Below, one piece after another: positions 37,382-47,884 of a DNA stretch of 55,061 bases. Below the pieces are notes generated by a model. The model searched no databases. It worked only from the letters and a program-made list of their open reading frames with translations, and was not told where the DNA came from. Position numbers and translations under genes: made by a program. The DNA comes from Sphaerochaetaceae bacterium (GTDB lineage Bacteria > Spirochaetota > Spirochaetia > Sphaerochaetales > Sphaerochaetaceae): assembly GCA_028532915.1 (NCBI GenBank), contig JAQQAI010000080.1, forward strand, positions 1-55,061, written 5' to 3'. Numbering within the stretch: the stretch's first letter is position 1; every line of letters begins with the position of its first letter.

Positions 37382-37410
37382 TTGCCTGAAAAAGATGACG
37401 GTTGTATAGT
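37382..37410 (+). promoter_or_regulatory. Promoter of the nitroreductase gene
   Basis: TTGCCT (37382-37387) and TATAGT (37405-37410) are 17 bases apart, giving a leader of about 14 bases before ATG 37431 with GAAGAGG as ribosome site. Confidence 0.6.
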
Positions 37411-37430
37411 TGCAATTGAAGAGGTTCAAT

Positions 37431-38018
37431 ATGCAGTTTCTTGAATTGGCAGAGAGCCGATGTACGACACGGGGTTTTCTTGAAAAAAAATTAAGCGAAT
37501 CTGATCTTACCTATATCCTTGAAGCGGGCAGGATGGCTCCGACCGCCTGCAACCGGCAGCCGCAGCGTATCATCGTTGCATCTTCCGAACACGCACTCAA
37601 TGAGGTGAAGAAGGCATATAATACGTTCGGTGCACCGGTAGTTCTGATCGTCTGTCAGGACAGAACAGACCCTCTGATCCGACCTTTCGACGGTAAATGT
37701 TCCGGCGATCTTGATATAGGTATCGTATGTGATCATATGATGCTTGCCGCACGAGAAAGGGGTATAGGGAGTGTCATGGTCGGTCTTTTTGACCCTGAGA
37801 TAATCAGGGGAGGTTTCGATATCCCGCCTGAATTCGAAGTTACAGCCCTGCTGATTCTGGGATACCCGGCAGAAGATTTTGCCGACCTGCTGAAGCGCAA
37901 GAGGCGAAAGCCTCTCGGGCAGACAGTGATGTTTGAAAAGGCCGGTACTGCTGGCGATGTGCCGCTGGAAGACAATTCCACCGATAATCGTATTCATTTG
38001 GTTTTCTCAGAACAATAA
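37431..38018 (+). CDS. Nitroreductase-family flavoprotein
   Basis: This 195-residue protein has the FMN-binding nitroreductase pattern: ESRCTTRGFLEKKLSESDLTYILEAGRMAPTACNRQPQRIIV near the start, the central DLDIGIVCDHMMLAARERGIGSVMVG, and the C-terminal LLILGYPAEDFADLLKRKRRKPLGQTVMFE. These enzymes reduce nitro groups, quinones or flavins with NAD(P)H. I chose ATG 37431 because GAAGAGG is upstream. It is divergent from the flavoprotein gene and 27 bases upstream of the promoter of an unrelated membrane module. Confidence 0.9.
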   Translation: MQFLELAESRCTTRGFLEKKLSESDLTYILEAGRMAPTACNRQPQRIIVASSEHALNEVKKAYNTFGAPVVLIVCQDRTDPLIRPFDGKCSGDLDIGIVCDHMMLAARERGIGSVMVGLFDPEIIRGGFDIPPEFEVTALLILGYPAEDFADLLKRKRRKPLGQTVMFEKAGTAGDVPLEDNSTDNRIHLVFSEQ

Positions 38019-38045: not shown

Positions 38046-38075
38046 TTGACAATGAAACCGTGGAAGGTCTAGACT
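38046..38075 (+). promoter_or_regulatory. Promoter of the two-gene membrane module
   Basis: TTGACA (38046-38051) and TAGACT (38070-38075) are 18 bases apart. Transcription should begin at about 38082-38084, right at the ATG, so the mRNA is probably leaderless. An in-frame GTG at 38060 lies between the two boxes and is therefore an unlikely start. Confidence 0.5.
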
Positions 38076-38083
38076 TTCCTGAA

Positions 38084-39001
38084 ATGAGTACTGACTGTTC
38101 ACAAATTATAAAACTTAACGGCGAGAAGAGAATAAGGGAATTGCGGGAGATTCAGAACAGTTATGTGAACAAGATAAATGATTACTATGAGAAAAATAGT
38201 TATCTAGAGGTAGAGAAAGAAAGGCTGAAGGATGATTACCGCTCAACACTAGTTCATGCGCATAATTTGCGCATCAGGAAAGTCTTGTTCATTCTGTCTC
38301 TCATAGAGTTGTCGATCTTATACTATCTCTTTTACAGCTTGTCTCTGGACTCGCTGCGATTCTTTCCGACATTTGGACTGACACTGCAGGCAGCAATCAT
38401 TTCTTTTTATTTTTTCACCTTATTGCTGCTATTCAGGTCAAAGGTTTGCCTGTTCTTGTCAAATCTATTTTTCGGATTGATCATTGTCACTTACTATATG
38501 TACTTCTTTTTCCCTGGTGAATCTGAATGGTATTATATGTTGATTCCAATAGTTGTCTTTGAGGCATTACTGATATGGATAAAACCGCTGCGTACTCTTT
38601 CTTCCTGGGGAATCGCGGGTATGTTCGCTGTATCATATCTATTAGAGTACACCATAAATGAGCTTGTGATCTTTATTCCCGTCGCTCTGATTCTCCCGGG
38701 ACTGTTGCTGTCCATCAAATTCAGGAATCTGTATCATATTCCTCAGAAGATCTCGGCGATGATACTTCTGTTCAATTATTCCACTGTCTCTTACGCGATA
38801 TCTTATATCAGGCAGATAGAATTCCCTTATATCTCAGATCCTGTGTATGTATCGATGATCCACGGAATATTCGATATTCAATCAGCTTTTTTGAAGTCGG
38901 TATTTCAGGACCCTGTGTATATGACATTGCTCGCCGTTGTCCTGGTCATCACCATAGTAAAAGAAGTCCTGTACCATAAAAGAATAGGGGAAAAACAGTG
39001 A
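38084..39001 (+). CDS. Unrecognised multi-pass membrane protein, N-terminal coil
   Basis: This 305-residue protein has a charged, probably coiled-coil N-terminal part (about residues 15-60) and then about eight hydrophobic segments. It ends in a short basic tail (YHKRIGEKQ). I recognise no family and no catalytic motif. Codon and base use is more AT-rich by eye than in the flanking transporter genes. The start at ATG 38084 is chosen from the promoter position; no Shine-Dalgarno is visible. Its stop overlaps the GTG of the next gene (GTGA), so both products are made together. Confidence 0.6.
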   Translation: MSTDCSQIIKLNGEKRIRELREIQNSYVNKINDYYEKNSYLEVEKERLKDDYRSTLVHAHNLRIRKVLFILSLIELSILYYLFYSLSLDSLRFFPTFGLTLQAAIISFYFFTLLLLFRSKVCLFLSNLFFGLIIVTYYMYFFFPGESEWYYMLIPIVVFEALLIWIKPLRTLSSWGIAGMFAVSYLLEYTINELVIFIPVALILPGLLLSIKFRNLYHIPQKISAMILLFNYSTVSYAISYIRQIEFPYISDPVYVSMIHGIFDIQSAFLKSVFQDPVYMTLLAVVLVITIVKEVLYHKRIGEKQ

Positions 39002-40269
39002 CAATAGAATTGTTGATTCAAATCTGGAAAATATCCTTTTTTATATCGATCGGGACTTCGATACTTCTATTTCTCTTTCTTGAAAAAGGAATAGAAGTAG
39101 ATGATAGTGGATTTTGGGGAAATTTTCCTTTTTTTCAATTCTATTATATTCTGGCATTCGCCGGAATATATTTGTTCTTCGGAAGAATTTCAACAGGATT
39201 CTTCCTGATAAATTGTGTGCTGGTCAATCTGGTGAATATAGCTTTCATATACGTCATAGTCCGCTTGATCGTGAACCGGTCTAAGAGAAAAAATCTGCAG
39301 ATGGTACAGAGGAAAAATTCCCGGATCGGAGAATTAAGCAGAAGCCAGGATACAAATTTACAGAATATACGTACATACGAAGAGAAGATACAGGAAGTTC
39401 AGCAGGAAATAGAGAAGATCGAATTCTTCATAAGGGAAGAATATATATGGACCAACTTGTTAAAAGAGACAAAATATTTCGATAAAGAGCATAAATTCAA
39501 TTCTGCAGGAACGAACATCTTTCTCGCAGGGTTCTCCTTTTATCAGGAATTCGAAGTCACTTCTCTCTCTTCTGATTTCTTCTTCTTTCTTTTACACAGC
39601 GCCAGATTTTATTATCTGGCAGGTGATTTCTCATTTGCAAACGGTCTGCTGGGGTCTTATGATGAGAAAAATGATCTGTTTTATGCGAAAATAGACGATA
39701 AGCACTATAGATGCAATAAGCTATTCGAGTTTTTGAATATAGATGATCAGGGAGAGAAGATCAGAAGAGGGATTCTGATAGGGCTCATGCTGATTGAAGT
39801 TCACATGGAAAAGAGAGCCATGGGAATAATAATCTACTGCAAGAATCTTCTTGAAAATTCCATCGGATCCGGCAATCAGACAGTACGGGCTCTCAAGCAG
39901 ATCATCTCGAACACATATACAGATAATGATCTGCTGGATTACAGATTCGATGACCTGAAAAAAACGATGTTCGCTAATTTTGAGAGATTGAGATTGGAGC
40001 AGTCAAGGTTCTATACTCAACTATTGAATAAGATGGATGATTATCAGAGAGATCTCAGGTCTATCGATAACAGAGTAAACAACCTGTCAGCAGGGTTGAA
40101 GATCGGGTTGCAGGAGATCAGTTACAATATCGATACTTTGAACAATAAAGTCGATTCAAACTTCGATTCATTATCAGATTCAGTGAACAGCGGCCTTACC
40201 TCAGTGAACAGGAATATCGACACAACCAGGAGAGACATAAACTACCTATATGACAGGCTGCTGTATTAG
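38998..40269 (+). CDS. Unrecognised membrane-anchored coiled-coil protein
   Basis: This 423-residue protein has about three N-terminal membrane segments (within residues 5-95). A coiled-coil follows at about 115-145 (NIRTYEEKIQEVQQEIEKIE), then a soluble middle domain of about 200 residues, and a C-terminal coil (about 345-423). The last coil shows a repeated pattern of NI/NV spaced by Asp, Ser and Asn (ISYNIDTLNNKVDSNFDSL, VNRNIDTTRRDI). I recognise no known domain. It starts at a GTG overlapping the previous stop. A tRNA-Arg gene lies 81 bases beyond the end, on the other strand. Function unknown. Confidence 0.6.
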   Translation: MTIELLIQIWKISFFISIGTSILLFLFLEKGIEVDDSGFWGNFPFFQFYYILAFAGIYLFFGRISTGFFLINCVLVNLVNIAFIYVIVRLIVNRSKRKNLQMVQRKNSRIGELSRSQDTNLQNIRTYEEKIQEVQQEIEKIEFFIREEYIWTNLLKETKYFDKEHKFNSAGTNIFLAGFSFYQEFEVTSLSSDFFFFLLHSARFYYLAGDFSFANGLLGSYDEKNDLFYAKIDDKHYRCNKLFEFLNIDDQGEKIRRGILIGLMLIEVHMEKRAMGIIIYCKNLLENSIGSGNQTVRALKQIISNTYTDNDLLDYRFDDLKKTMFANFERLRLEQSRFYTQLLNKMDDYQRDLRSIDNRVNNLSAGLKIGLQEISYNIDTLNNKVDSNFDSLSDSVNSGLTSVNRNIDTTRRDINYLYDRLLY

Positions 40270-40308
40270 CTGGTTTTGATGTGGAACATTTAAAATTCCC
40301 GGTGTATG

Positions 40309-40340
40309 AAAAAGCCTTGCAGGCCGGAAGCCCGCAAGGC
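40309..40340 (-). terminator. Terminator of the tRNA-Arg transcript
   Basis: On the minus strand GCCTTGC and GCAAGGC pair around a GC-rich loop that can pair further, followed by TTTTT. It begins ten bases past the tRNA 3' end. Confidence 0.8.
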
Positions 40341-40349
40341 ATGGATTTG

Positions 40350-40423
40350 TACCCCGAACGCGATTCGAACGCGTGACCCCTTCCTTAGGAGGGAAGTGCT
40401 CTATCCAGCTGAGCTATCGGGGC
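40350..40423 (-). tRNA. tRNA-Arg (anticodon CCU)
   Basis: The 74-base cloverleaf reads on the minus strand. The acceptor GCCCCGA pairs with TCGGGGT (G-U at the end), then comes a D arm with AGCTCAGCTGGATAGAGC and an anticodon arm CTTCC-CTCCTAA-GGAAG giving anticodon CCU (decodes AGG). A variable loop and T arm ACGCG-TTCGAAT-CGCGT follow, with discriminator A. CCA is not encoded. It is a single tRNA gene followed by its own terminator. Confidence 0.95.
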
Positions 40424-47032: not shown

Positions 47033-47884
47033 TCAGGATTCTTTTTGTATGCAGACAGTATCTAGATTCCTATCGTCACAATTAGGATGATAGGTTATCG
47101 AGAATCTTGTTTTATCGAGATGTTTTTCCATGATTCTCAAGGCCGGAGTGTAAATAAATGATCCTCCAAAGGATAGAGAATCCAGAATCTCATGATATTT
47201 GCGCTCATAGAGCCCTTTTACCGGATCTTGAGCGATAAGACTTCTTCTGAAATGGTTTGAAAAGGACATATGTGCAATAATAGTGCCCCATGAAGAAGGT
47301 CTGAAGTAATATTCCAGCCAGTTACCGCAGAGTATATTCTGATCATTACCTTTATATTGATCGATCCCGTAAAGCTTATCGTATCCTCTGGATCTCAGAA
47401 AAGTAATCAGCTGATGACGTCTTCCGCATCCGAGATCGAGTATCGGTGGTCTCAACATTTTCCCTTCAAGATGCAGGAGACTGAACTGAAAAGAACCCGT
47501 ATACTCTGCACAGTGTGAGCAAATCTGGTTCTGATCTCTATTATTCACATTATTCTGCAACGTCTGTATAAGATTCTTTCTGTGTTTTGTTACGATCTGT
47601 TCCAGGTCTCCTTCAGCGATACTTCCCTGCATTGCGTAGTGTCTAAGGTTCAGAATCAGATTTCTGTAGACGTTCTCGATTTCCTTCATCGTCTTCTGTG
47701 ACAGAGATATATACTGGTTTGAATGAACACATTCCATAACCAGATGGTCATACAGTAGGCCAGCAATTGAATGTATCTTTTCTTCGGTCCGTATCATCCG
47801 GTACAAGGAAAGGTTTTCCCGAATTATCTGAATGATATTGCCTTTGGTCTTTTTGTCTTCGAGATAGGTGATAATAGATCTCAT
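47033..47884 (-). CDS. Putative SAM-dependent methyltransferase with CxxC motif
   Basis: This 283-residue protein has a helical N-terminal region of about 120 residues, a CSHC pair at 122-125, and then a class I methyltransferase-like domain. The latter has motif I ILDLGCGRRHQLI at 148-160 and an acidic residue in YGIDQY after strand two. I cannot name the substrate. The ATG follows a weak ribosome site (GGAGAAC). It stands alone between infA and the RNHCP gene, and is more AT-rich by eye than its neighbours. Methyltransferase assignment is from the motif only. Confidence 0.6.
   Translation of the reverse strand: MRSIITYLEDKKTKGNIIQIIRENLSLYRMIRTEEKIHSIAGLLYDHLVMECVHSNQYISLSQKTMKEIENVYRNLILNLRHYAMQGSIAEGDLEQIVTKHRKNLIQTLQNNVNNRDQNQICSHCAEYTGSFQFSLLHLEGKMLRPPILDLGCGRRHQLITFLRSRGYDKLYGIDQYKGNDQNILCGNWLEYYFRPSSWGTIIAHMSFSNHFRRSLIAQDPVKGLYERKYHEILDSLSFGGSFIYTPALRIMEKHLDKTRFSITYHPNCDDRNLDTVCIQKES

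Follow-up and report, generated by a model that had tools for sequence, protein, structure and literature searches.

A rare, translation-coupled pair of membrane and coiled-coil genes beside tRNA-Arg(CCT) in a spirochaete: a possible conflict or defence module

Kiwa is a two-gene membrane defence system. The locus described here, from a Sphaerochaetaceae genome, also consists of two genes for membrane-associated proteins (A and B), and we tentatively read it as a rare inner-membrane module of two proteins whose genes are translation-coupled, gained by horizontal transfer and most likely of the conflict or defence type. The features of the locus are collected in Table 1; the window is the whole stretch of 55,061 nucleotides that was analysed, which forms contig C80 of a genome of 2.64 Mb in 96 contigs.

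Table 1. Features of the A/B locus and its borders (positions in the window)
Feature	Position	Strand	Basis and remarks
Nitroreductase-family gene	37410..38018	+	Upstream of A; Pfam PF00881, E 4.7e-21; not beside the pair in L010
Sigma-70-like promoter TTGACA-N18-TAGACT	38046..38075	+	10/12 consensus matches
Gene A	38084..39001	+	305 aa; N-terminal cytosolic coil (predicted) and ~8 membrane helices; ORF call, L010 alignment, hydropathy, low-confidence AF2
GTGA start/stop overlap of A and B	38998..39001	+	Sequence; ATGA in L010
Gene B	38998..40269	+	GTG start, 423 aa; ORF call, L010 alignment A1, hydropathy, heptad scan, low-confidence AF2
Terminator-like hairpin of the tRNA	40314..40340	-	Between B and the tRNA; equivalent hairpin in G001 and G003
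tRNA-Arg, anticodon CCT	40349..40423	-	ARAGORN, Rfam; convergent with gene B

The initial annotation described two overlapping genes, and the overlap is indeed present, the GTG of B running into the TGA of A (junction letters CAGTGACA). Open reading frame A was first called at 38060..39001 (+), with a GTG start and 313 aa. The ATG at 38084 is preferred because the homologue of A in the only relative found (L010, described below) has, in the alignment, precisely 13 residues ahead of the invariant G in a KxNG motif, matching this ATG; on sequence grounds, the start of gene A thus appears better placed there, giving 305 residues. The pair had also been credited with its own promoter, and a sigma-70-like sequence does precede A; its match is, however, weak on its own, as 21 sites with this pattern were found versus 9.7 in shuffles, and it overlaps the GTG at 38060, so that either the promoter or that GTG start must be wrong. 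A transcript from this promoter would start almost at the start codon of A. In L010, TTATTGAC lies ~43 nt upstream of the start codon, and neither copy has a good ribosome-binding site at normal spacing before A.

The relative in question, JAQVLH010000159.1 (L010), is a contig of 3073 bases assigned to a Nanoarchaeia metagenome-assembled genome; a scan of 84,980 genomes yielded no other relative. Both genes recur on it in unchanged order, with an overlapping start and stop (ATGA) and the same domain layout, and the contig also holds the start of an ISL3 transposase gene. It differs from the window in this ISL3 neighbour, in its GC content (23–24%, compared with 38–39% for the window pair) and in that its 3 kb hold neither a nitroreductase gene nor tRNA-Arg. 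Identity to the window proteins is 42% for B over its length and 28% for A. Between the two B genes, identity at the three codon positions is 54/68/34%, and 98 of the 172 identical residues are encoded by different codons, a pattern that indicates selection on the protein and, together with the recurrence of the pair at much lower GC, argues against A and B being chance reading frames. A and B are thus real, selected genes, conserved as a unit in two unrelated assemblies. The assignment of L010 to a Nanoarchaeia host is uncertain: its tetranucleotide correlation of 0.45 lies at the low end of its bin, and its ISL3 gene has no other copy in that genome and none in 237 relatives of the phylum. 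Because the pattern-based genome scan finds close relatives only, the A/B family may be larger than the two members found.

The proteins are built much as first proposed. For A, hydropathy and the helices of low-confidence AF2 models give an N-terminal coil of ~60 aa followed by ~8 membrane helices, of which 6–7 survive a strict hydropathy cut – in agreement with the eight-segment membrane protein with an N-terminal coil of the initial annotation. The membrane-anchored protein with two coiled coils and a middle domain is likewise recovered in B: three membrane helices (residues ~9–92, from the same two sources), the third followed by a positively charged stretch, lead into a first coil (~96–140), a conserved helical domain (~141–325) and a C-terminal coil (~326–423), as delineated by hydropathy, heptad scan and AF2. 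The single-sequence AlphaFold models themselves (pLDDT 55 for A and 49 for B) were rejected as a basis for a fold search on account of their poor quality. Identity of B to its L010 counterpart is 41% over the membrane part, 22% over coil 1 and 31% over the C-terminal coil; within the middle domain, one half reaches 40% and the other 63%, the latter value belonging to residues 231–325, and a core motif, GEKIRRG-x2-IG-x-MLIEVHMEK, is nearly invariant between the two known B proteins. This distribution of identity points to the middle domain as the probable functional centre of B.

That neither protein belongs to a known family was claimed at the outset and is confirmed at the level of Pfam, NCBIfam, PADLOC, PHROGs and PDB sequences, none of which gives a significant match beyond a generic coil. 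In Pfam and NCBIfam, no match of A or B exceeds the curated cut-off, the best sub-threshold ones lying in coiled coil. The PspC domain of the PSP envelope-stress proteins is reached at E 0.031 and 14.2 bits, versus a cut-off of 104 (NCBIfam pspC). PHROGs holds no clear full-length match for either protein, PDB sequences no significant one, and none of the PADLOC-DB 2.0.0 families is matched by A or B of either member (window, L010). One candidate, phrog_3590 (E 3e-4), was attributed to the coiled coil and rejected, since the match was lost when the middle domain alone was scanned and also appeared in unrelated control genomes.

All 138 other genomes of the family, two congeners included, lack the pair (one weak coil match was seen), and a single-sequence search of 394 other genomes of the class did not recover it either. 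The remaining matches among 296 genomes sampled from the phylum are weak, and almost every one stays within the C-terminal coil of B; 278 genomes of the L010 phylum gave two weak partial matches. Two weak genome matches (L007, L008) were discarded as relatives, being a GAF/phosphatase protein and an antisense reading, respectively; the matches in family f19 genomes were discarded as homologues because they cover the coil only. The congeneric genome G001 has an empty site: an ABC permease, a disulphide oxidoreductase, tRNA-Arg(CCT) and livK follow one another in window order, the gap between the oxidoreductase start and the tRNA is ~140 bp, tRNA terminator included, and there is no counterpart of the ~2.95 kb that hold the nitroreductase gene, A and B. 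The same spot is taken by PfkB-type and other genes in G002, and by CutC and a metallopeptidase remnant in G003. The best relative of the nitroreductase in the 15 family genomes searched is 35% identical. The simplest reading is a gain of the insertion in the window's lineage; the empty site, the absence from 138 family genomes and the position of the distant relative beside a transposase together support the pair as accessory and horizontally acquired.

Base composition, in turn, does not mark an island. The AT-richness noted by the initial annotation exists as overall GC (0.39 for A and 0.38 for B, versus a window gene mean of 0.47), but it does not hold as a sign of foreign origin: GC3 is 0.486 for A and 0.468 for B, within the range of the window genes (0.513, sd 0.042), so neither gene has the atypical synonymous composition expected of horizontal acquisition, and composition was dropped as island evidence. 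The low GC sits at codon positions 1 and 2, and thus reflects amino-acid composition – membrane and coil residues – rather than foreign codon usage. Elsewhere in the window, a 283-aa open reading frame at 47036-47884 (-), with a GC of 0.40 and no Pfam match, adjoins an RsgA-like GTPase gene.

In Escherichia coli, tRNA loci often serve as hotspots for defence genes (PMC10121019). The initial annotation took the neighbouring tRNA for an insertion site, a claim that holds in part: the tRNA gene does lie beside the pair, and in relatives it is a hotspot, but the window copy has neither an integrase gene nor a tRNA repeat. Between 37353 and 40349 there are only the nitroreductase gene, A and B, with no integrase among them, and the tRNA 3' end has no direct repeat in the window, nor any in the genome at E<=1e-12. 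For this genome, the data therefore do not support insertion by an integrase at this tRNA.

Three of the 71 family genomes carrying tRNA-Arg(CCT) contain a further, partial copy. In G007, an element starts at the tRNA, and a 47-nt tRNA 3' fragment located on a different contig fits its far end; on its two contig ends, this element carries genes for SSB, an excisionase-like HTH protein, a CI repressor, a PtuA-like ATPase (3e-35), PDC-S39 and PDC-M19A/B (9e-77, 2e-82), and we infer that the two contigs adjoin. The element block corresponds to L042, L070 and L115 (C16:87929-98704 and C1:1-5309). In G034, a 42-nt tRNA 3' fragment lies at a distance of 10.6 kb, and the interval includes PDC-M04A/B (1e-93, 3e-40) as well as an AriA/NsnB-like ATPase; as the fragment is inverted, simple insertion is not supported there, and the arrangement suggests an inversion involving att-like sites. 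The stretch G034:C95:1-10767 (L095, L116), with the tRNA-Arg 3' fragment at 122-163, also contains a TIR-like gene and a CI-like repressor. G004 has an RmrA-like HTH-M78 gene and a UG39-type reverse transcriptase (RT_UG39) between tRNA-Arg(CCT) and livK (L110, C1:570681-576680), and G003 has a truncated PD-Lambda-2_B-like gene near the tRNA. A further observation comes from G399, where two tRNA-Arg(CCT)-like matches in the same orientation lie 2.2 kb apart (C1:3035677-3037986). In a sample of 20 genomes, defence-type matches occur on either side of the tRNA, many genomes having housekeeping genes only. The idea that defence genes are limited to its 3' side was rejected, since the 5' side carries them too; it is hence the region, rather than one side, that is variable, and the context is a regional one.

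Genomic context would favour defence over a membrane-stress or surface role. Positively charged residues, which follow the third B helix and also occur in the A coil, would place the N-terminal coil of A and the large C-terminal part of B both in the cytosol; B may be anchored beside A, with the two proteins pairing through their coils. If the pair is a conflict module, residues 231–325 of B, with the conserved core motif, might then recognise an infection or envelope signal and change the state of the eight-helix A protein, and the altered A would affect membrane integrity or transport such that growth or infection stops. Topology and conservation would thus cast B as a putative sensor and A as a candidate effector. 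A bolder version, which we consider rather unlikely, holds that the pair constitutes a membrane immune system of two proteins not described before, in which B supplies an all-helical sensor domain (possibly a new fold) and A an eight-helix membrane effector. It would have spread across distant phyla – perhaps from bacteria to archaea or the reverse – albeit so far seen in two genomes.

The case for defence is that, in relatives, this tRNA is surrounded by genes of defence type and of mobile elements; against it, the members found amount to two copies (window and L010), and the pair itself sits among genes for a nitroreductase, an oxidoreductase and ABC transporters, with no defence gene adjoining. 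These nearby transporters and redox enzymes would rather suit an envelope or membrane-stress pair – A transporter- or channel-like, B a membrane-anchored cytosolic regulator or scaffold – serving as an accessory fitness trait with no phage role. The topology is compatible with a transporter and its regulator, and the normal GC3 points either to a long stay in this lineage or to a donor whose GC was similar. Such a pair is nonetheless somewhat unlikely: not one of the 138 family genomes conserves it, neither protein matches a transporter family, and the distant L010 copy adjoins a transposase.

That ISL3 neighbour, the real elements found at the tRNA hotspot in G007 and G034, and the nitroreductase gene that came with the insertion are all consistent with cargo or a maintenance pair of a mobile element (toxin–antitoxin-like, for superinfection exclusion, or conjugation-related membrane proteins), left after the element decayed. 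Yet A and B are unusually large and multi-domain for a toxin–antitoxin pair, and 50,697 phage records, 72,556 plasmid records and IMG/VR gave no match to the pair in scans that perform best at close relatives, which leaves this origin distinctly unlikely. Host-like GC3 and codon usage with no foreign signal could, lastly, indicate a lineage-restricted host orphan pair, inherited vertically, lost in G001 and others, and not mobile. We hold this to be very improbable, since absence from the 138 family genomes, two congeners among them, combined with a 42% identical copy in the unrelated L010 assembly, would demand multiple independent losses.

Should the preferred reading of a conflict or defence module be correct, the pair adds a membrane system that current defence catalogues miss on account of its rarity and its lack of a known family. 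Even if they do not act in defence, A and B define two new protein families that are conserved together, and the tRNA-Arg(CCT)–livK region is a place to seek further unknown systems in this spirochaete family.

Described proteins and systems offer the following comparisons. Among bacterial coiled-coil proteins, SpiroCoCo_C and many proteins in family f19 genomes weakly match the heptad-rich C-terminal segment of B; the match is limited to the coil (profile positions ~331–444), the conserved domain and membrane parts of B having no counterpart. The PADLOC candidates at tRNA-Arg(CCT) in relatives (PDC-M19A/B, PDC-M04A/B and PtuA-like) share the neighbourhood and the form of small accessory operons, but have no sequence relation to A or B. 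Kiwa-like systems, whose PADLOC profiles do not match the pair and whose size and domain layout differ from those of A and B, resemble it in general architecture: a multi-pass membrane protein coupled to a second protein.
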